Source of the DNA: Moraxellaceae bacterium
GTDB lineage: Bacteria; Pseudomonadota; Gammaproteobacteria; Pseudomonadales; Moraxellaceae
DNA: 64,000 nt
Direction of reading: 5' to 3'
Assembly: GCA_029267635.1 (NCBI GenBank)
Contig: JAJUIK010000003.1
Coordinates: forward strand, 130,751 to 194,750
Shown: piece by piece, positions 28,089-46,838 of the stretch
Layout: each line of letters begins with the position of its first letter
Numbering within the stretch: position 1 is the stretch's first letter
Position numbers and translations under genes: made by a program
Notes under the pieces: generated by a model
The model's database searches: none
What the model was told of the DNA's origin: nothing
Seen by the model: the letters and a program-made list of their open reading frames with translations, nothing else

Positions 28089-29588
28089 TTACATATAGCG
28101 GATACCAAGAATAGTAAAAGTTTTTTTATGTACGGGAATAAAGTTTGCAGGATCATCTGCTTTACTTAAGTTTAATTTAAAATCACCCGTCATCTCAGTC
28201 ATATCTGTACCACCCACAACCATTAAATTACCTTCAATATTTACAGTACCAGTACCAATCAATTTTCCAGATGACCCACCTGTACCTCCGGCAGAAGAGT
28301 TAGCCATTAAATTGCCATAATAGCTGACATGAACATTCTGTTGCTCTTTACCGCCACTCAACTGTAAAGTTTTAGAAAGATAGAGAATATTGGCAATTGT
28401 TGCAGGCATTTTTTCCATTTCTGCTACAGGTTTCAATACACCCTCAGCACTACAGTATTGAGTGGGATAACTCGCTGGACAAACCTTTAATAACCGTGCA
28501 TTTCTATCATTATCTGATATTGAATTTAATACATAATGATGTGGAGCATATGCTTCAAAATAGGTTGCTAGATAGTTTCCATTCAATTCTATAATTTTAC
28601 TATTGATATGATTTGTGGAAATAATGGTATTCACTAGAATATTTTTTTTATATTCTGTGGTTACCTCAACTGTATTTTGACCGACTTTTTCTGTCATTTT
28701 TACTGCACTGGCATTTAGCTGAACTTCAACATCTGCGTCAAACCACAAAACGCCGGCGGGTACACTCTGAGCGCTATTTATAATCCATACATTGTTGCTT
28801 TTCGTAATAGCTGATGTACAAGCTGCGATCTCTCCAATAATTATTTCATTATCAATTTTTTTACTCTGTGCAATATCAAAATAATTATTCCGCGCACACA
28901 TTAATTTTTCATTATCAGTATAAAAAATATAATTCGCATACTTCCTGGCTTCAACAGGAGATATGAAATCTCTTGGAGTATAAGGAATAATATTGATACC
29001 CACTGTTTTTAGTTCTTCTTGAGTATAGGTTTTTCCACTACCTCCCATTTCAGAGATAACTCCTCCACCAATTTCTAAAGTAACATTATTAGCGGTTAAA
29101 TTTTCTAATTTATTAACTTTTAAACCACCTTCAAATATTGAGCCGTTTAATCGCTCATTCACTAACTCATCAGAAATGATGAATTGGGAGCGAATAATCG
29201 AAGTTGCTCCACCACTTTTACCAAAAATATCAAAACAGTATTTTCCTGTCCCACAACTTACTTTTTTAAAATGAATTGGTACACTACCTCCACTGACTGT
29301 TCCCGTTGCAATTGTTTCAATTCTGGGAATATCTATAAGAGATTGACGCTTTAAAAATTCTGTTAAAGCTTGATAACCAATCATGGCCTGCATTTGTGCT
29401 TGGGTTTGTGCATGAGCCGTAGTTGCACTCGATTGCAGACTACGCATAGAAGACATGTAACCGACTGTCAAAACTGTTAGAGATAGCCCAACCAAGACAA
29501 TAAACAAAAGCGAAGAAAACCCTTCCTGCTTGGACAGAGATGTTATTCTAGATTTTTTTTTCATAATGGAAGACATACGGTTTATCAT
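28089..29588 (-). CDS. Large PilX-like minor pilin
   Basis: The 499-residue protein has a type III signal: a basic leader to Gly23, then F24-S-S-L-L and a hydrophobic helix (LLFIVLVGLSLTVLTVGYM). Position +5 after cleavage is Leu, not Glu, as in PilX/GspK-type pilins that sit at the pilus tip. The exposed part (about 70-499) is more than twice the usual PilX length. It has repeated short V-x-I/L strands and a Gly/Ser-rich stretch (AGGTGGSSGK) followed by GTVNIEGNLMVVGG, suggesting a beta-rich, possibly beta-helical head. RBS AGGGGAT. It is last of a five-gene minor pilin operon with no PilY1. Confidence 0.7.
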   Translation of the reverse strand: MINRMSSIMKKKSRITSLSKQEGFSSLLFIVLVGLSLTVLTVGYMSSMRSLQSSATTAHAQTQAQMQAMIGYQALTEFLKRQSLIDIPRIETIATGTVSGGSVPIHFKKVSCGTGKYCFDIFGKSGGATSIIRSQFIISDELVNERLNGSIFEGGLKVNKLENLTANNVTLEIGGGVISEMGGSGKTYTQEELKTVGINIIPYTPRDFISPVEARKYANYIFYTDNEKLMCARNNYFDIAQSKKIDNEIIIGEIAACTSAITKSNNVWIINSAQSVPAGVLWFDADVEVQLNASAVKMTEKVGQNTVEVTTEYKKNILVNTIISTNHINSKIIELNGNYLATYFEAYAPHHYVLNSISDNDRNARLLKVCPASYPTQYCSAEGVLKPVAEMEKMPATIANILYLSKTLQLSGGKEQQNVHVSYYGNLMANSSAGGTGGSSGKLIGTGTVNIEGNLMVVGGTDMTEMTGDFKLNLSKADDPANFIPVHKKTFTILGIRYM

Positions 29589-29597
29589 TTTTATCCC

Positions 29598-30287
29598 CTA
29601 TTTAAAGTTAAATAGGCAGGTGACATTACTAATTTTTTCAGCTGTAGTGGCACTACTTGCAGCATAAGTATTAGCAGTTAATACGACCAGGTATTTGCCT
29701 CCAACAGAAATATTATTCTTTACACCGAAGGGGAGACAATTAGTCGTTTCCTGAACCTCAATATTGATTTCACCTACTTTATTGGTGCTATTAGATATTC
29801 CAGAGCTGGCAAGAGTACTTCCCACTTGAACTAATAATTCTTTTGTCAGTGTTTCTTCAGGTTTAACCAGATTTGCACAGATATAACCTGTGTCTTTGCC
29901 ATATAAATACAATCCATTCGCATGACTTTGTAAAGCCTGGCAATGTGTATTTGAGACTTTCCAAACTAAGAATTTTCCTGTTGCTCTTTTTGTAGTGGCA
30001 TCCAAATTAACGGCTGTGCCAGCTTGATCTAAAATGCGAAAATTCGTGCCATATCCAGCTGTGGTATCACTTAATTCAAATCCCATACCTTGCAAGATAC
30101 GATCTGCAGTAATAAAACCCAACATTATATTGCTATCTACTTTGGCACCCAGAGAAGATTCAGCAGTAACTTTTCCGGTAGTTACAAATGCACGCAACAT
30201 AGCCAGAATAATAATAATTGACAGGGCAAGCGAGATGAGAATTTCAAGTAGAGAAATGCCGTACTGTGAAGATTTGGGATTAATCAT
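29598..30287 (-). CDS. PilW-like minor pilin
   Basis: The chosen ATG at 30287 has a GAGGAA ribosome site and gives 229 residues; starts at 30302 and 30305 are also in frame. The leader ends at Gly10, then ISLLE with Glu at +5 and a long hydrophobic helix. The motif KVDSNIMLGFITADRILQGMGFEL after the helix is typical of PilW proteins, and later Cys residues (NTHCQAL, YICANL, TNCLPFG, NVTCLF) could pair in the head. It is part of the priming complex of a type IV pilus. It begins within a few bases of the pilV stop. Confidence 0.8.
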   Translation of the reverse strand: MINPKSSQYGISLLEILISLALSIIIILAMLRAFVTTGKVTAESSLGAKVDSNIMLGFITADRILQGMGFELSDTTAGYGTNFRILDQAGTAVNLDATTKRATGKFLVWKVSNTHCQALQSHANGLYLYGKDTGYICANLVKPEETLTKELLVQVGSTLASSGISNSTNKVGEINIEVQETTNCLPFGVKNNISVGGKYLVVLTANTYAASSATTAEKISNVTCLFNFK

Positions 30288-30301
30288 CTTTTTATTCCTC
30301 A

Positions 30302-30736
30302 TCACGGTGATATTTGCACTTTGATCGGAACAAAGCTGTCATCGGCACTGATTTTAATCTCTGCATAACTCACATTAACCGTCGAGGCTGCTACGCCTTG
30401 TTTAGGATTAGAGTTATTAAATGTGTCTACAGTGAAGGCCTGCGTTTTAACCGTACAATCCACTTGTACCTCTTTGCCGACAATCTTTACTTTCTCAGAA
30501 TGAGTTCCCGTAGATTTACTGCCACATTGTGTCGAATTTTCTAATTGTTGACGAAGTTGGCCAATGGTATGTAAGTGAATATTTTGATCACGGTGTATTA
30601 CGGCAGTACGTCCGGCAATAAAGGCTCCACCAAGGCCAATAATCGCCATAAGCACAATCGAAATCAGCACTTCAATAAGTGTGACCCCTTGCTGACTCTT
30701 CGGTAAAGATAAAATCTTACAATGCTCCTGTTGCAT
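30302..30736 (-). CDS. PilV-like minor pilin
   Basis: There are 144 residues from the ATG at 30736, preceded by GGAGGTG. The prepilin leader ends at Gly17, then VTLIEVLISIVLMAIIG with Glu at +5. Two downstream Cys residues (STQCGSK and VDCTVK) may form a disulfide. It resembles the PilV/GspI class of minor pilins. It overlaps the FimT-like gene by 20 nt. Confidence 0.8.
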   Translation of the reverse strand: MQQEHCKILSLPKSQQGVTLIEVLISIVLMAIIGLGGAFIAGRTAVIHRDQNIHLHTIGQLRQQLENSTQCGSKSTGTHSEKVKIVGKEVQVDCTVKTQAFTVDTFNNSNPKQGVAASTVNVSYAEIKISADDSFVPIKVQISP

Positions 30737-31172
30737 TGACACCTCCACCTGCGGCCGTAATCGTATAGACCGTACAGTCTGCAGTCATTACATGCGCATT
30801 ATTATTCAATAGAATTTTATTATTACACTTGTCTGATAAGGTCACCGTAACTCTCGGTTCAATTGTTACCTTTAATACAATTGAATCGGCTGTGCTATCA
30901 TCTTTATTTCTGACGGTAATTGTCTTGTTTTCATTATCTACAATTAAAATTGCTGCTGGTATCGTACTATCCATGGGTACACCATTTGGATTACGGACTG
31001 CCTCATTCTTAGTCCGGTTATAGGCTTCCAAGAATAGCTTTTCGGTTTTGGTAATCTGTGCATTTGCAACCCAATTTTGTCCTAACGGAAATACTGCTAA
31101 AGTCAACATTGCCAATAAAACAATTGCGATCAAAAGCTCAATTAGGGTTACTCCGTACTGTCGATTTACCAT
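30717..31172 (-). CDS. FimT/GspH-like minor pilin
   Basis: There are 151 residues from the ATG at 31172, which overlaps the stop of the pilin upstream by 7 nt. The leader is only seven residues, ending at Gly7, then VTLIELLIAIVLLAML with Glu at +5. The post-helix region (AQITKTEKLFLEAYNRTKNE) is typical of FimT/FimU proteins. FimT homologues bind DNA in natural transformation of some gammaproteobacteria; whether this one does is unknown. Confidence 0.8.
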   Translation of the reverse strand: MVNRQYGVTLIELLIAIVLLAMLTLAVFPLGQNWVANAQITKTEKLFLEAYNRTKNEAVRNPNGVPMDSTIPAAILIVDNENKTITVRNKDDSTADSIVLKVTIEPRVTVTLSDKCNNKILLNNNAHVMTADCTVYTITAAGGGVNATGAL

Positions 31173-31618
31173 GATGTTAAGCCACCACAACCATAAGTTT
31201 TCGGAATGCTTCTATCGTTTTTATTATTGATCGTAAGTTGGCAGTTTGTGTTGCGTCCCTTACCTGTTGCTATCAAGGTATAACTCGTATCGGTAACATT
31301 TACCTTATACTCAAAAGTTTCTGTTTCCGCGGGTTGCCATATTCCTGTTATCCCTTTACTTGTCAAATACGCACTGGCTTCTTGTTCACCATTTGAACTC
31401 GGATAGATTAAGTTTCGTTGATACAAACTCTCTAGCACCAGACTGAGTGTAACTAAATCTGCTCCAGCATTTCTTGCTTTAGCTTTAGTGATGTAGTTTG
31501 AATACATCGGCATAGCTATTGCCGCAAGAATAGCCAAGATAACCACTGTCACCATAAGCTCTAGTAGCGTAAAACCAGCATGAGAAGATTGAAGCTTTGA
31601 AATTTGTTTTTTATACAT
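31166..31618 (-). CDS. PilE-like minor type IV pilin
   Basis: The protein has 150 residues. The leader ends at Gly15, followed by FTLLELMVTVVILAILAAIA with Glu20 at +5. The head shows EYKVNVTDTSYTLIATGKG and a C-terminal Cys pair (NTNCQL, YGCGG), the usual PilE disulfide loop. It is first in the operon. The length suits a minor pilin of the PilE/ComP-like type, not proof of a major subunit. Its ribosome site is weak. Confidence 0.82.
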   Translation of the reverse strand: MYKKQISKLQSSHAGFTLLELMVTVVILAILAAIAMPMYSNYITKAKARNAGADLVTLSLVLESLYQRNLIYPSSNGEQEASAYLTSKGITGIWQPAETETFEYKVNVTDTSYTLIATGKGRNTNCQLTINNKNDRSIPKTYGCGGLTSW

Positions 31619-32414: not shown

Positions 32415-33848
32415 TTAATCTAGTTTTTCTAGTTTGATACTGTCACGGTAGTATTGGCAGCCTTTATACAGTAGGAACACACCAATCACTCCCGCAACCG
32501 CATTAACGATTGAGATCGAGTTGCCGACCAATAAAGTATTCTGGAAATATTTATCAGTAATTAATGCCACTGCTGTTGTACCCACACCAAGAGCGATCAG
32601 GTTAGAGATCAGCAGGAATTTTGCAGACACCTGAGCGCGCAACTGGTTTGGTGTGAGCATTTGCGTCGCTGCCGCAGAAGCTGGAATTGGGAAGGTAGAG
32701 AAGAACATTGCCACAAAGATCAGCGCAAAAGACAGCTGCATATTATCTACTTGGGTGAATAGCACACTCGGAATAATCAGTGCTGCACAACCAATCATAC
32801 CAGCACGAATTGCTGCATCGCTATACCCTTTTTTCGAGAAGAAGTCGATCAGCCAGCCGCAGAATAGAGCACCTGAAGTATTCGCAACCAGAATAATAGT
32901 TCCCAAAATATAACCCGTTTCACTGGCGGTCAGACCAAAATGACGCATGTAGTAGGCCGGTGCCCACCCCAACAATGAATACAGCATCATGGTATAGAAA
33001 GAGAAACCGATAAAGTGACAGAAAAAGGTCTTTTTATGGGTTTTAATAAATGCGATGGAGTTCTTGAACGATGCTTTAACCACAACGCCATCCTGACCCA
33101 TTTTCAAGCCTTTACGGGCTGGTTCTTTGATGGTCAGAATCATGACCAAAGCCAGCAAGACACCTGGTAAACCGACAATCATAAAGGTGAGTTGCCAGGT
33201 TTTCACTTGACCAATCACAGGTAGGATAATCTGATCCACATCTTTCAGTAAGCCAATAACATACCCACCAATTAAAAATGCCAAGCCAGAACCAATGAAC
33301 GCACCAATCGCATACAGACCCAACGCACGGCCTAATTTTTCTTTCGGGAATAAATCCGCCACGATGGAATAAAATGCTGGGGATAATGCTGCTTCACCTG
33401 CACCTACACCCAAACGTGCCAAGAACATCTGAATAAAGTTTTTGCTTAAACCACAGGCTGCCGTTGCAATACTCCAGAAGGCAATTCCGACTGCAATAAT
33501 TTTCACGCGTGATTTTTTATCAGCGAGCGCTGCAATGGGTACGCCCATAAAGGCATAAAACAGGGAGAAAGCCAAACCTTGTAGCAAGCTGAACTGCGTG
33601 TCGCTCAGCATCAGGTCTTGTTTAATTGGTTCGATCATTAGCGACAGAATCTGGCGATCTACAAAAGACAGAATATAGGCCACCATACAGATGACCACCA
33701 CATACCATTGATAGGTACTGGTTTTATTTTCGCTATGCTCAGGTGTCGTAATCGTTTGATCAGCAGGTGCTGCTTGCTCAAACGCTGTGATTTCGGATGT
33801 GCTGTTCCTTTCGACCACATCCATTTCTAGGGTCTTATCATTCATCAT
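32415..33848 (-). CDS. MFS transporter, spinster-like; candidate phenylacetate-regulon transporter
   Basis: This 477-residue major facilitator has a 45-residue polar N-terminal tail and twelve predicted helices. Signature loops are VDRQILSLMIEPIKQDL, GVPIAALADKKSRVKII (loop 2-3) and ARLGVGAGEAALSPAFYSIVADLFP. It resembles the spinster-like MFS group often found with aromatic-compound catabolism. An AGGAAG ribosome site precedes the ATG. It lies beside paaZ on the same strand but separated by a terminator. Its own upstream region has the same inverted repeat as the paaA promoter, so transport of phenylacetate or a related acid is a reasonable inference, not shown. Confidence 0.8.
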   Translation of the reverse strand: MMNDKTLEMDVVERNSTSEITAFEQAAPADQTITTPEHSENKTSTYQWYVVVICMVAYILSFVDRQILSLMIEPIKQDLMLSDTQFSLLQGLAFSLFYAFMGVPIAALADKKSRVKIIAVGIAFWSIATAACGLSKNFIQMFLARLGVGAGEAALSPAFYSIVADLFPKEKLGRALGLYAIGAFIGSGLAFLIGGYVIGLLKDVDQIILPVIGQVKTWQLTFMIVGLPGVLLALVMILTIKEPARKGLKMGQDGVVVKASFKNSIAFIKTHKKTFFCHFIGFSFYTMMLYSLLGWAPAYYMRHFGLTASETGYILGTIILVANTSGALFCGWLIDFFSKKGYSDAAIRAGMIGCAALIIPSVLFTQVDNMQLSFALIFVAMFFSTFPIPASAAATQMLTPNQLRAQVSAKFLLISNLIALGVGTTAVALITDKYFQNTLLVGNSISIVNAVAGVIGVFLLYKGCQYYRDSIKLEKLD

Positions 33849-33878: not shown

Positions 33879-33917
33879 TGATACTTTTAATACATACTTA
33901 TTTTTTATTTTGTATCG
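33879..33917 (-). promoter_or_regulatory. Bipartite inverted repeat upstream of the MFS gene (probable PaaX operator)
   Basis: TGATAC (33879-33884), a 27-nt spacer and GTATCG (33912-33917). The repeat at the paaA promoter has the same half-sites, the same spacing and a shared AATACATA inside the spacer. It ends 30 nt before the MFS start codon, so a bound repressor would block transcription. Confidence 0.6.
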
Positions 33918-33995
33918 TCTTTTGCTAATTTAGGGCTTAAATGAGCGATCGTCAATCGAAATTATAAAATTTGACACAAATATTTCAATTAAACT

Positions 33996-34025
33996 AAAAA
34001 AAGGAATCATAATGATTCCTTTTTT
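33996..34025 (-). terminator. Terminator after paaZ
   Basis: AGGAATC / GATTCCT with a 5-nt loop is flanked by A- and T-runs, 13 nt beyond the paaZ stop. It separates paaZ from the MFS gene. Confidence 0.85.
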
Positions 34026-34038
34026 AATGTTTCATAGA

Positions 34039-36153
34039 TTAGGCGGCACGTTCAACTAGCGTCAGAATGTCATAGGTTGCGACCAGATCATCACGCTGAT
34101 TTTTCACCTTAATGTCCCAGACCACCACACCATGCGGTTTTTGTGTTGGATCTTTGAGCTGTTTTGGCGTTTTCTGTTTGCAGGTCAGTTCGACCTGAAT
34201 GGTATCGCCAATTTTCACTGGTTCCACAAAACGCAGGTTGTCCATACCGTAGTTGGCAATTACGGGGCCAACGGCAGCATCGACAAACAGGCCAGCCGCC
34301 GCAGACACCACAAAGTAACCATGTGCGACGCGTTCACCAAAGAACGAATCTGCAGCACCAATTTTGTCCATATGGGCATAGAAATAATCACCGCTTAAGC
34401 CGGCAAAGTTCACCACATCAGATTCCGTAATGGTACGGCGTGCAGTCAGCAGACGTTCACCGATACGCAATTCATCAAAGGATTTTTTGAATGGATGTAC
34501 GCGATCTTCATGCACGTGTGCACCTGCCGTCCAGCTATGGCCAATTTGTGTCATGGCATTTGGTGAGCCTTGAATGGCGGTACGCTGCATATAATGTTTC
34601 ACGGCACGCAAGCCACCGAGTTCTTCACCGCCACCGGCACGGCCTGGTCCACCATGGACCAAATAAGGCAATGGTGAACCATGTCCGGTACTTTCTTTGG
34701 TACTTTCTGCATCCAGAATATGCAGTCGGCCATGCCAAGGGGCAATTTTGGCAATCAGCTGTTCAATATTCTGTTCTGGATTACGTACTACGGATGCCAC
34801 CAGACTCCCTTCACCACGTGCGACGAGGTCTGCCAGTTCAGCGAAGTTTTGATACGGCATCAGTGTCGCCACAGGACCAAAGGCTTCCACTTGATGAATA
34901 TATTTGGCTTCTGTTGGATGTTTGCAGACTAAAAGTGTAGGGGGATAAAACGCGCCTTTTACTGGCTGCTGGGCCTGAATGGTATAGTCTTGGCGTAAAT
35001 GGCTGCCCAATACAATCTCGGCATCCTGGCTGAGTAATTCGACTTTTTCCGCCACATCCTGTTTTTGTTTAACGCTGGCTAAAGCCCCCATGGTGACCTC
35101 TGCAAGTTCTGGATTGCCCACCACGACTTTCTGTAATTTGGCAACGAGACGGCTTTGCACGGTTTCTAGTAATGCTGCTGGAACAAAGGCACGACGAATG
35201 GCAGTACATTTCTGGCCGGCTTTGGTGCTCATTTCACGGAATACTTCACGCACAAACAGATCAATGGTTTCGTCACTGGCATCTTCGGTCAGAATGGCAC
35301 TGTTGACCGAATCGGCTTCCATACTAAACGGAATGGAGTATTGATTAAGATGTGGATGGGCACGCAGTTTTTGACCGGTGGATGCTGAACCGGTGAAAGT
35401 AACAGTATCTTGTGGTCCTAAATAATTAAATAGATCATAGGTTTGGCCGCAGATCAGCTGCAACGAACCTTCTGGCAGGAAACCGCTGGCATGAATATCT
35501 TTTACCACCGCGTGGGTCAGTTCAGCACCTTCGGTGGCTGGTTTTACGATACATGGCACACCGGCCAGAAGTGTCGGTGCAATTTTTTCCAGCATGCCCC
35601 AGATTGGAAAGTTAAAGGCATTAATGTGGACCGCGACACCTGCTTTGGCGGTCAGGATATGTTTGGCACCAAAACTGCCGTGTTTGGATAAAGGAATCCA
35701 GGCATCTTCCACCAAAGCGGTTTCATCGCTGAGTTCACGGCGTACCAGACTCGAATAGGCAAATAAAGTCGCGATACCACCTTCAATATCAATCCAGGCA
35801 TCTTTACGGGTACAGCCAGTGGCTTTGGCCAGTTCATAATAGTGTTCTTTGCGTTCTAGCAAATATTGTGCGACTTGTTTTAGCGCATTGGCACGTTGAT
35901 GGAAGGTCCAGGATGCAATCGCTGAACCGTGCTGTTTGGCATAGTCCACCACGCTTTGCATGTTAATGCCCTGGCTGCTGACCTGATAGATCGCGTCACC
36001 GCTAATGGCATGGTAGACCGTGCGCAAGTCTTGTTGTGCGGTATGGCTTTGACCATACACTAAGGAACTTAAGGCTTTGATGGAACTAAAGCCTGAGCTG
36101 CTGCTGGTATCTTGATTGTCTGTAGGGTTCGAGCCTGATTCTAACTCTAACAT
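34039..36153 (-). CDS. paaZ: PaaZ: oxepin-CoA hydrolase / 3-oxo-5,6-dehydrosuberyl-CoA semialdehyde dehydrogenase
   Basis: This 704-residue bifunctional enzyme opens the ring in phenylacetate degradation. The N-terminal half is an aldehyde dehydrogenase: INAFNFPIWGMLEKIAP, the catalytic Glu in SMEADSVN and the nucleophilic Cys in AGQKCTAIRR. The C-terminal 150 residues are an R-specific MaoC-type hydratase (LSGDYFYAHMD, ERVAHGYFVVSAAAGLF). E. coli PaaZ has 681 residues; the extra length is a Ser-rich N-terminal tail of about 25. An AAGGAG ribosome site is clear. It is divergent from paaA. Confidence 0.96.
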   Translation of the reverse strand: MLELESGSNPTDNQDTSSSSGFSSIKALSSLVYGQSHTAQQDLRTVYHAISGDAIYQVSSQGINMQSVVDYAKQHGSAIASWTFHQRANALKQVAQYLLERKEHYYELAKATGCTRKDAWIDIEGGIATLFAYSSLVRRELSDETALVEDAWIPLSKHGSFGAKHILTAKAGVAVHINAFNFPIWGMLEKIAPTLLAGVPCIVKPATEGAELTHAVVKDIHASGFLPEGSLQLICGQTYDLFNYLGPQDTVTFTGSASTGQKLRAHPHLNQYSIPFSMEADSVNSAILTEDASDETIDLFVREVFREMSTKAGQKCTAIRRAFVPAALLETVQSRLVAKLQKVVVGNPELAEVTMGALASVKQKQDVAEKVELLSQDAEIVLGSHLRQDYTIQAQQPVKGAFYPPTLLVCKHPTEAKYIHQVEAFGPVATLMPYQNFAELADLVARGEGSLVASVVRNPEQNIEQLIAKIAPWHGRLHILDAESTKESTGHGSPLPYLVHGGPGRAGGGEELGGLRAVKHYMQRTAIQGSPNAMTQIGHSWTAGAHVHEDRVHPFKKSFDELRIGERLLTARRTITESDVVNFAGLSGDYFYAHMDKIGAADSFFGERVAHGYFVVSAAAGLFVDAAVGPVIANYGMDNLRFVEPVKIGDTIQVELTCKQKTPKQLKDPTQKPHGVVVWDIKVKNQRDDLVATYDILTLVERAA

Positions 36154-36169
36154 GAAGAAACTCCTTTTA

Positions 36170-36207
36170 TGATACGTTTTACGATGAATTTTAATTTTGA
36201 TGTTTCA
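36170..36207 (-). promoter_or_regulatory. Degenerate operator copy upstream of paaZ
   Basis: TGATAC (36170-36175) and GTTTCA (36202-36207) are 26 nt apart. This resembles the TGATAC-N27-GTATCG repeats at paaA and the MFS gene, with one changed base and a spacing one shorter. It ends 16 nt from the paaZ ATG, next to the ribosome site. Confidence 0.4.
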
Positions 36208-36332
36208 TAATTTGTGTGTAAAAAAGCAAATTGTCAATCAGGTTGGCAGTAAAAAAATCATTTCTAAAAATATCTAAAAAATTAAAATTTTAAAAAACAA
36301 TATGTTAAATAAAATGATTCAATATTTTTAAT

Positions 36333-36371
36333 TGATACTAAAAAATATGTATTGATTTTAAACTTGTATCG
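36333..36371 (+). promoter_or_regulatory. Bipartite inverted repeat at the paaA promoter (probable PaaX operator)
   Basis: TGATAC (36333-36338), a 27-nt spacer and GTATCG (36366-36371). A possible promoter, TTGATT (36352-36357), 17 nt, TAATTT (36375-36380), overlaps it, so the distal half-site falls between -35 and -10. PaaX-family repressors bind such promoters and are released by phenylacetyl-CoA. Confidence 0.65.
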
Positions 36372-36415: not shown

Positions 36416-37360
36416 ATGAAAAATCATTTGGAAGATTTCGACCGTGCAATCGCACAAGACATTTCAGTTGAGCCAAAAGACTGGATGCCAGAAGCCTACC
36501 GTAAAACTTTGATCCGCCAGATTGGTCAGCATGCCCATTCGGAAGTGATCGGCATGTTGCCGGAAGGCAACTGGGTTACTCGTGCGCCGACCTTAAAGCG
36601 TAAAGCGGTTTTATTGGCCAAGGTGCAAGATGAAGCGGGTCATGCCTTGTATCTGTACAGTGCGGCAGAAACCTTAGGCGCGGACCGTGATGACATGATG
36701 GATAAATTGATTGCGGGTCGCATGAAATATTCTTCCATCTTTAACTATCCAACTTTGACCTGGGCAGATATTGCCGCGATTGGCTGGTTGGTGGATGGCG
36801 CAGCGATCGTTAATCAGGTGGCACTCTGCCGTACCTCGTATGGTCCATATGCACGAGCGATGGTGCGCATCTGTAAAGAAGAAAGCTTTCATCAACGTCA
36901 GGGTTTTGAAGCCATGATGGAACTTGCTAATGGTACGCCTGAACAAAAACAGATGGCACAAGATGCAGTCAACCGTTTCTGGTGGCCAGCACTGATGATG
37001 TTTGGCCCAAATGATGACAATTCACCAAATAGTGCACAAAGCATGGCCTGGAAAATTAAACGTTTCAGTAATGATGAATTGCGTCAAAAGTTTGTCGATA
37101 ACACCGTACCACAAATTTTGCAGCTGGGGCTGACTGTACCGGATGCTGATTTAAGTTTCAATCAGGAAACCGGCCATTATGAGTTTGGTGCGATCAATTG
37201 GGATGAGTTCTTCGCGGTTGTGGCCGGTAAAGGTCCATGCAACCAGGAGCGTATTGATGCACGTCGGCAAGCTTGGGAAGGTGGAAAATGGGTACGTGAC
37301 TCAGCGGCCGTTTATGCACAAAAACAGCAAGCACAACAGCAAGACAAGAAAGTGGCTTAA
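36416..37360 (+). CDS. paaA: 1,2-phenylacetyl-CoA epoxidase, catalytic subunit PaaA
   Basis: There are 314 residues from the ATG at 36416 (GTGAGGA ribosome site). It is a ferritin-like diiron protein with E43, E73 and H76 (QDEAGH) and E155/E156/H159 (EESFH) as candidate iron ligands. It inserts one oxygen atom into the ring of phenylacetyl-CoA as part of the PaaABCE complex. It is the first gene of the long catabolic operon. Confidence 0.97.
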
Positions 37361-44538: not shown

Positions 44539-45831
44539 ATGAATAATAACGCAATGGAAAAGATCGAAACCGTTTCAATTGACGAATTGCGTCAGGTGCA
44601 GCTAGAGCGCATGAAAAAAACCTTGCAGCATGCGTATCAGAATAGCCCGGTCTATAAAAAGAAATTCGATGACGCCGGCGTGCATCCCGATGATTTTAAA
44701 TCCTTGGACGATCTGGCCAAGTTTCCATTCACCACCAAAAAAGACCTGCGTGACAACTATCCGTTTGGCATGTTTGCCGTTCCACAAGAACAGATTGTGC
44801 GTGTACATGCCTCTTCAGGTACGACCGGCCAGCCTACTGTGGTCGGTTATACGCAAAATGATATCAATATCTGGTCTGATGTGGTGGCGCGTTCCTTGCG
44901 TACAGCAGGCCTGAGTCATAAAGATACCATTCAGGTTTCCTATGGTTATGGCTTGTTTACCGGTGGTTTGGGCGCACATTATGGTGTGGAGCGTTTGGGT
45001 GCGACGGTAATTCCGATGTCGGGTGGCCAGACCGATCGACAGGCGCAACTCATCCATGATTTCAAGCCAACAGCATTGATGGTGACACCTTCTTATTGCC
45101 TGAACATTATTGAAGCTCTCGAGAAAAAATTTGGCACGGCCAAAGACTGTTCGATTAAAACCGGCATTTTTGGTGCTGAGCCATGGACCAATGAAATGCG
45201 TAAGGAAATCGAAGAGCGTTTAGGCATTGATGCGCTGGATATTTACGGTTTATCCGAGGTGATGGGGCCGGGTGTGGCGATGGAATGTCTGGAATCGAAA
45301 GACGGTCCGACCATTTGGGAAGATCATTTCTATCCGGAAATCATTCATCCGGAAACCGGTGAAGTTTTACCAGATGGCGAACTGGGTGAGCTGGTTTTTA
45401 CCACGATTACCAAAGAGGGTATGCCGGTGATCCGCTATCGTACCCGTGATTTGACCCGTTTATTGCCGGGAACAGCGCGTACCATGCGCCGTATGGATAA
45501 AATCGTGGGCCGCAGTGATGACATGATGATCATTCGTGGGGTCAATGTTTTCCCATCGCAGATTGAAGAGCAGATTTTGCAGATTCCGCAATTGATTCCT
45601 AACTATGAAATTCACATTTGTAAACATGGACATTTGGATACGTTGCATGTTCGGGCAGAAATGCGTAAAGATATAAGTGATATCGCGGCACATCAGTTGT
45701 CACAGCAATTGAAAAGCCAGATCAAAACCATGGTCGGGATTACGGTGAGTGTGGAAATTCTGCCAGAAGGCACATTACCACGTTCGGAAGGCAAGGCGCA
45801 GCGGGTATTTGATATTCGCCAGATTGCATGA
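44539..45831 (+). CDS. paaK: Phenylacetate-CoA ligase PaaK
   Basis: This 430-residue AMP-forming ligase has the P-loop SSGTTGQPTVVGYT (about 94-107), GLSEVMGPGVAMEC, and the hinge and C-terminal GRSDDMMIIRGVNVFPSQIEE. It activates phenylacetate to phenylacetyl-CoA, the inducer of the pathway. AAGGAG ribosome site. An 82-nt gap separates it from paaJ. Confidence 0.96.
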   Translation: MNNNAMEKIETVSIDELRQVQLERMKKTLQHAYQNSPVYKKKFDDAGVHPDDFKSLDDLAKFPFTTKKDLRDNYPFGMFAVPQEQIVRVHASSGTTGQPTVVGYTQNDINIWSDVVARSLRTAGLSHKDTIQVSYGYGLFTGGLGAHYGVERLGATVIPMSGGQTDRQAQLIHDFKPTALMVTPSYCLNIIEALEKKFGTAKDCSIKTGIFGAEPWTNEMRKEIEERLGIDALDIYGLSEVMGPGVAMECLESKDGPTIWEDHFYPEIIHPETGEVLPDGELGELVFTTITKEGMPVIRYRTRDLTRLLPGTARTMRRMDKIVGRSDDMMIIRGVNVFPSQIEEQILQIPQLIPNYEIHICKHGHLDTLHVRAEMRKDISDIAAHQLSQQLKSQIKTMVGITVSVEILPEGTLPRSEGKAQRVFDIRQIA

Positions 45832-45869: not shown

Positions 45870-45896
45870 CAGTTTTGAAGTGAAGGGTTAAATGTG

Positions 45897-46838
45897 ATGA
45901 ATCCAAAATTAAAACAGGTTCTTGATGATTTCATCGACCGTGAAGCATTAAGTGGTACATCACTGATCATGACCATTTTCGGTGACAGTATTTTTCATCG
46001 GGGCGGGATTATCAGTTTAGCCAGTCTGATTCAGCTCATGGATGTTTTTGCTTTTAATGAGCGTTCTGTGCGTACTGCGGTGTTTCGCTTGGTACAAAAT
46101 GGCTGGCTGATTTCTGAGAAGATTGGCCGTACCAGTTATTACCGGGTCACCGAAAGTAGCCGTCAGCGTTTTCTGATGGCGGATCAAAAAATTTACAGTT
46201 TCACCCATTCCGACTGGGATCAGAAATGGGATTTGGTATTACTCAGTTCTGTCGAGCTGGAAAATAAAATCATTTTGAAACGTGAACTGGAATGGTTAGG
46301 TTTTGCCAATATTGCCACCAATGTCATGGCTTATCCGGGTTGTGATCACTTGAAACTACAAAATCTGTTGCTCAATTTAAAAATGACCGATCAGGTAGTG
46401 CTATTTAAAGCTGAAACCTTGCAGTTGTGGCAGGAATCTTATCCAACTGTCAAACGGATGGTAGCGACCAATTGGCCGGTGCAGGAACTGCACACACGTT
46501 ATGAAAAATTTATCCATGATTTCCGTGAATTTTTTAATTTGGTGGAACATGAAGAAGATCTGGATCCCATACAGGCCTTCCAGATTCGTATTTTGCTGAT
46601 TCATCAGTATCGTCGTATTTTGCTCAAAGATCCAAACTTACCGTTTGAGCTATTACCGTCCGACTGGCTTTCCCTGACTGCACGTAATTTGAGTAGCAAC
46701 CTCTATCAAACCGTATTTTCAGCTGCGGATGAGTTTTTTCTGGACATCGCCCGCACTTCCGAGGGCAGCATGCCGCCGGCACATCCGCAATTTTATAAGC
46801 GTTTTGGTGGCTTAAAACAGGAAGCCATGAGCGTTTAA
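45897..46838 (+). CDS. paaX: Phenylacetate pathway repressor PaaX
   Basis: There are 313 residues from the ATG at 45897; a GTG one codon earlier is in frame. The N-terminal winged-helix domain (SLIMTIFGDSIFHRGG, then NERSVRTAVFRLVQNGWL) and the middle SYYRVTESSR and DWDQKWDLVLLSS are typical of PaaX. It is a GntR-like repressor relieved by phenylacetyl-CoA. Likely targets are the TGATAC-N27-GTATCG repeats at paaA and the MFS gene. Confidence 0.95.
   Translation: MNPKLKQVLDDFIDREALSGTSLIMTIFGDSIFHRGGIISLASLIQLMDVFAFNERSVRTAVFRLVQNGWLISEKIGRTSYYRVTESSRQRFLMADQKIYSFTHSDWDQKWDLVLLSSVELENKIILKRELEWLGFANIATNVMAYPGCDHLKLQNLLLNLKMTDQVVLFKAETLQLWQESYPTVKRMVATNWPVQELHTRYEKFIHDFREFFNLVEHEEDLDPIQAFQIRILLIHQYRRILLKDPNLPFELLPSDWLSLTARNLSSNLYQTVFSAADEFFLDIARTSEGSMPPAHPQFYKRFGGLKQEAMSV

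Follow-up and report, generated by a model that had tools for sequence, protein, structure and literature searches.

A predicted PaaX-controlled Spinster-like transporter gene beside the phenylacetate catabolic cluster of Acinetobacter

In a 64,000-nucleotide stretch of Acinetobacter DNA (the window), bipartite inverted repeats at the promoters of paaA, paaZ and a neighbouring MFS gene are very likely PaaX-type operators. Taken as a whole, the preferred model is that PaaX controls the MFS gene along with the catabolic genes and that the MFS protein is a phenylacetate carrier, with import as the favoured direction; judged from sequence, it is given a probability of roughly 70%. The operator is of a known kind; the novelty lies in the transporter assignment. 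No earlier report of that assignment was found in the literature searched, many subscription papers and regulon databases lying outside the search, and no published expression, binding or transport data naming this MFS gene were found there. A. baumannii, the usual subject of published expression work, lacks the MFS orthologue.

The features of the window that bear on the model are as follows.

32415–33848, minus strand: Spinster-like MFS gene, predicted phenylacetate carrier (Pfam MFS_1, relative 6e8j, linkage to paaZ-paaA)
33879–33917, unstranded: putative PaaX-type operator of the MFS gene, TGATAC-N27-GTATCG (conserved as N26 or N27 in 38/38 upstream regions)
33927–33955, minus strand: predicted MFS promoter, TTGACG-N17-TAAATT (TTGAC and the -10 are conserved alignment columns)
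33997–34025, minus strand: terminator-like hairpin separating the MFS gene from paaZ (13-bp stem, then a T-rich tail)
34039–36153, minus strand: paaZ (TIGR02278, 955 bits)
36170–36207, unstranded: weaker putative PaaX-type operator of paaZ (conserved leaders; E. coli counterpart in the same place)
36208–36237, minus strand: predicted paaZ promoter abutting the operator, TTGACA-N17/18-(C)AAATTA (from sequence and conserved leaders)
36333–36371, unstranded: putative PaaX-type operator of paaA, TGATAC-N27-GTATCG (perfect arms in 54/55 distinct regions)
36352–36357, plus strand: paaA -35-like TTGATT inside the operator spacer (TTGA[CT][AT] in 54/54 sites)
36416–37360, plus strand: paaA, at the head of the catabolic operon (TIGR02156, 513 bits)
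44539–45831: PaaK
45894–46838, plus strand: paaX, repressor (TIGR02277, 264.8 bits, cut-off 264.55)

Since the hairpin separates paaZ from the MFS gene, the latter appears to have its own promoter. With the start sites predicted from sequence, the MFS operator starts 9 nt downstream of the -10 at roughly +3 to +41 and spans roughly the first 40 transcribed bases; the paaZ promoter likewise runs straight into its operator. The paaA -10 is weak and its start site is similarly a prediction. The -35-like TTGATT falls inside the operator spacer. The initial annotation had placed PaaX in the same cluster, and the encoded protein is indeed a near-full-length match to E. coli PaaX (8a39, 217 bits over residues 8–311) with winged-helix, Cas2-like and C-terminal PaaX domains (PF07848, PF20803, PF08223), all scoring above their cut-offs. 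Type IV minor pilin-like genes follow in a run downstream of the MFS gene (28089–31618), and among them 31166–31618 matches the ComP DNA-uptake-sequence receptor domain.

A scan of the window for TGATAC-Nx-GTATCG with spacers of 24–30 returned two exact sites at 33879–33917 and 36333–36371, identical letter for letter to those first annotated and both with N27, against 0.09 matches expected from dinucleotide shuffles of the window. The MFS-gene site lies 30 nt from the ATG at 33848, and the weaker copy, TGATAC-N26-GTTTCA at 36170–36207, lies 16 nt ahead of the paaZ ATG, reading TGAAAC-N26-GTATCA on the paaZ strand. Both placements had been described correctly, and the weaker copy is conserved in relatives. 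When the whole genome (Acinetobacter, 2.45 Mb, 32 contigs) was searched with spacers of 20–30, three perfect matches were obtained: the two window sites and a third within an open frame (C32:132473), which was rejected as a regulon member. Every additional N27 match with one mismatch was within a long open frame and was rejected as an operator. Outside the two sites the motif therefore has only open-frame matches, with no random scatter across the genome. One element of the initial annotation was not upheld. The sequence AATACATA, said to be common to both spacers, is out of register between them and occurs in only 1/38 MFS sites and 6/54 paaA sites; it was rejected as part of the operator, is regarded as a coincidence, and is wrong as evidence.

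The E. coli PaaX operator has been described as TGATTC(N27)GAATCA, with phenylacetyl-CoA as the inducer (review, PMC9493321). In the E. coli K-12 sequence, TGATTC-N27-GAATCG was found just ahead of paaA and TGATTC-N28-GAAACA just ahead of paaZ, the latter in the same place as the weaker copy of the window. The operators of E. coli (Pz and Pa) and of Acinetobacter both consist of two 6-bp arms, TGAWWC/GWWTCR, with a spacer of 26–28; in each, the paaA site is the better match and the paaZ site the weaker, and both paaA copies end in G. Inverted arms are present at all three window sites, with spacers of N27, N27 and N26 and with placement at the paaA and paaZ promoters. The systems differ in three respects. 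The Acinetobacter arms are TGATAC/GTATC rather than TGATTC/GAATCA, the Acinetobacter paaA site spans the -35 region whereas that of E. coli adjoins the start codon, and in Acinetobacter a third operator would serve a transporter gene.

Another reading is that the sites, though real and shared, are recognised by some other regulator and that PaaX is not involved. GacSA and others act on paa expression in Acinetobacter (PMC9239106), and some Acinetobacter are reported to carry PaaR. The TetR-type PaaR, however, has a described operator that is a 15-bp palindrome such as ACCGACCGGTCGGTT, without PaaX-type arms (PMC9493321), whereas arms, spacer length and even the poorer paaZ site match those of E. 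coli, a species in which these sites are under PaaX control. PaaX is moreover present in every genome with paaA, and a different regulator is considered highly improbable. That PaaX controls all three genes, the simplest reading offered by the initial annotation, is supported by this agreement and by the paaX gene in the cluster; with little doubt, PaaX would act at the paaA, paaZ and MFS promoters.

Conservation was studied at loci taken from 31 named genomes and in about 50 additional genome regions; as the two sets overlap, counts were made on distinct sequences. A genus-wide N27 search identified many genomes with a site pair about 2.45 kb apart, and the motif is kept at the same promoters throughout Acinetobacter; this and the lack of genomic scatter both favour the initial reading. 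Among the loci compared, every MFS orthologue has a site 67–76 nt before its start. All 38 distinct MFS upstream regions carry the arms with no more than one mismatch, 28 of them with N27 and 10 with N26, a combination of arms and spacing found in 0.25% of shuffled sequences. The spacing has a sharp peak at 26–27, other spacers being nearly absent, and pairwise identity is 90% and 98% in the two arms as compared to 63% in the spacer and 59% in the 5' flank. That the site pair is a coincidence might be argued from the AT-rich intergenic DNA of the window, in which short half-sites recur by chance, and from the at least two matches seen in 3/100 window shuffles. Arms that are kept in 38/38 upstream regions while the spacers diverge, together with the spacing peak, refute it, and its probability is negligible.

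Among the 55 distinct paaA regions, 54 have perfect arms, separated by N27 in 37, N28 in 16 (A. baumannii-type and A. dispersus-type) and N26 in one; TTGA[CT][AT] was found inside the site in all 54. At paaZ, TGAAAC or TGAATC is paired with GTATCA in nearly all leaders and a conserved TTGAC promoter adjoins it, the clear exceptions being three loci (L085, L091 and L092) where the paaZ operator is decayed and the MFS orthologue is also absent. In A. baumannii-type loci (L087–L106), the N28 spacer at paaA coincides with a divergent PaaX that is only about 60% identical to that of the window. In another genome, paaA has an internal TAA stop (G070:C22:672004-672930) while the MFS gene and the operators are kept.

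The product of the MFS gene has Pfam matches to MFS_1 (149.8 bits) and OATP only, and is not a member of the PaaL permease family. Its best solved relative is 6e8j (167 bits, 5e-48, residues 43–434), HnSpns of Hyphomonas neptunium, whose numbering fits the HnSpns paper, followed by a human Spns1 construct (2e-17) and DgoT (2e-13). As its sequence is nearest to Spns among solved MFS proteins, it is a Spinster (Spns) relative by a sequence criterion. The residues aligned with HnSpns D41, R42, D60, R122, E129 and D142 are identical in all 44 paa-linked and paralogous proteins; window D64, R145 and E152 align with D41, R122 and E129 and are invariant in this set. Roles in a proton switch and a charge relay have been described for these HnSpns residues (PMC9440201), so their conservation argues for proton coupling. 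The residues do not indicate a direction because Spns proteins are proposed to run both ways, as symporters or antiporters in principle (PMC9440201, PMC13192786). While the known Spns substrates are lipids and drugs, the genetic context of the window MFS gene points to arylacetates.

Of 119 Acinetobacter genomes, 57 have PaaA and the same 57 have PaaX. An MFS orthologue, defined by at least 82% identity, is present in 34 of the 119, all PaaA-positive, and it is always beside paaZ-paaA at 2.6–3.3 kb from paaA (Fisher p = 8e-15 for co-occurrence with PaaA, a linkage statistic that ignores shared ancestry). It is absent from 23 of the 57 PaaA-positive genomes, A. baumannii-type included, so the MFS gene is inessential to the pathway genus-wide. 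In a PaaA-positive locus without the orthologue (L130:2856-7846), downstream of paaZ come two open frames resembling CoA-transferase subunits, an MFS gene of another, sugar-transporter-like type and a gene for an OprD porin; no PaaX-type site precedes the start of that MFS gene. Other genera of the order yielded only two homologues (62% identity), both in one genus of Pseudomonas-like genomes; each has an OprD gene next to it, and no paa genes were recognised in the vicinity.

A paralogue with 57–62% identity is at most 12 kb from a presumed iacA in 34 of 39 places (e.g. L121:6537-7886, L122, L124, L127 and L128). It is never within 12 kb of paaA and is in no genome without iacA, although these statistics ignore shared descent. 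The surrounding iac-like cluster includes a MarR regulator, an amidase, an acyl-CoA-dehydrogenase-like monooxygenase, a SnoaL-like protein and Rieske oxygenase subunits; presumably it is an iac cluster, an assignment made by content and by comparison with iac gene order. No PaaX-type site was found upstream of the paralogues examined, and PaaX control of them was rejected; the sole PaaX-type match near one (genome G034, L124:8353) is not upstream of it. The iac cluster of strain LF7 includes an mfs gene (PMC8383072), a possible counterpart of the paralogue.

Under the same PaaX control, the substrate might instead be another compound entering the pathway, for example a hydroxyphenylacetate, phenylacetamide, phenylethylamine or a phenylalkanoate. 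PaaX controls peripheral genes elsewhere, namely penicillin acylase in E. coli and styrene genes in Pseudomonas Y2, and the absence of the MFS gene from many genomes with the pathway would suit a peripheral role. Against this, no peripheral catabolic gene for such compounds was seen in the interval from paaZ to the MFS gene, the latter is associated only with core paa genes, and the iac-linked paralogue suggests free arylacetates. Another substrate of this kind is thus decidedly unlikely. Judged on sequence and context, the MFS protein probably transports phenylacetate or a close arylacetate, and the pathway transporter of the initial annotation is supported by the strict linkage, the paralogue tied to iac, the OprD pairing and the proton-coupling residues.

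The direction of transport may be considered in terms of these same neighbors. An exporter under PaaX control would be a proton antiporter that relieves excess phenylacetate or toxic shunt products. The phenylacetate pathway has reactive intermediates, phenylacetyl-CoA would be a fitting inducer for a relief valve, and the two-way operation proposed for Spns proteins is compatible with it. However, OprD porins, generally uptake channels, adjoin the paa-linked MFS gene of A. dispersus, two of the iac-linked paralogues and the two Pseudomonas-like homologues; the paralogue is linked to the catabolism genes of a different arylacetate; and the equivalent permease and porin pair of Pseudomonas serves uptake. 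An exporter is therefore unlikely. The OprD pairing and the iac-linked paralogue point to arylacetate import, which, given transport, is favored over export with good odds. It is about an even bet that a bacterial Spinster-type MFS subclade is made up of dedicated arylacetate/proton symporters, with a phenylacetate branch under PaaX and a sister branch for the auxin indole-3-acetate beside iac.

In the proposed mechanism, PaaX would span both arms when phenylacetate is absent, a distance of about 33 bp centre to centre or three helical turns, and block transcription, at paaA across the -35 region and at the other two promoters immediately after the -10. Phenylacetyl-CoA made by PaaK would release PaaX and so induce the transporter gene at the same time as the catabolic operon. 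The MFS protein would then act as a proton-coupled, Spinster-fold carrier, most probably importing phenylacetate. A point against the model is that at low pH diffusion gives phenylacetic acid another way through membranes. Of this scheme, the sites, conservation, linkage, families and residues were computed; PaaX binding, the response to inducer, the substrate and the direction are inferred.

In A. baumannii, reported effects of phenylacetate concern pili, antibiotic tolerance and oxidative stress (PMC9239106). No assignment of a phenylacetate uptake route in Acinetobacter was found in the literature searched. The MFS gene may serve as a specific candidate phenylacetate transporter in many environmental Acinetobacter, and its operator would extend the PaaX regulon to a transporter. 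The model also proposes a physiological small-acid substrate for the bacterial Spinster group, which is known mainly for lipids and drugs. For the A. baumannii group, the iac-linked paralogue, sometimes accompanied by an OprD porin, offers a candidate auxin transporter.

A functional comparison can be made with PaaL and PaaM of Pseudomonas putida. PaaL is of the sodium:solute symporter type and not an MFS protein. In strain CA-3, PaaL expression depends on a sigma-54 promoter, a difference from the MFS gene, and among the 102 genomes of one study PaaL and PaaM occurred only in P. putida. Nonetheless, PaaL and PaaM, a phenylacetate permease and porin pair for uptake (PMC2653477), are like the window MFS gene in being encoded within a phenylacetate cluster, and the pairing of permease with porin is echoed by the MFS and OprD genes of A. 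dispersus.
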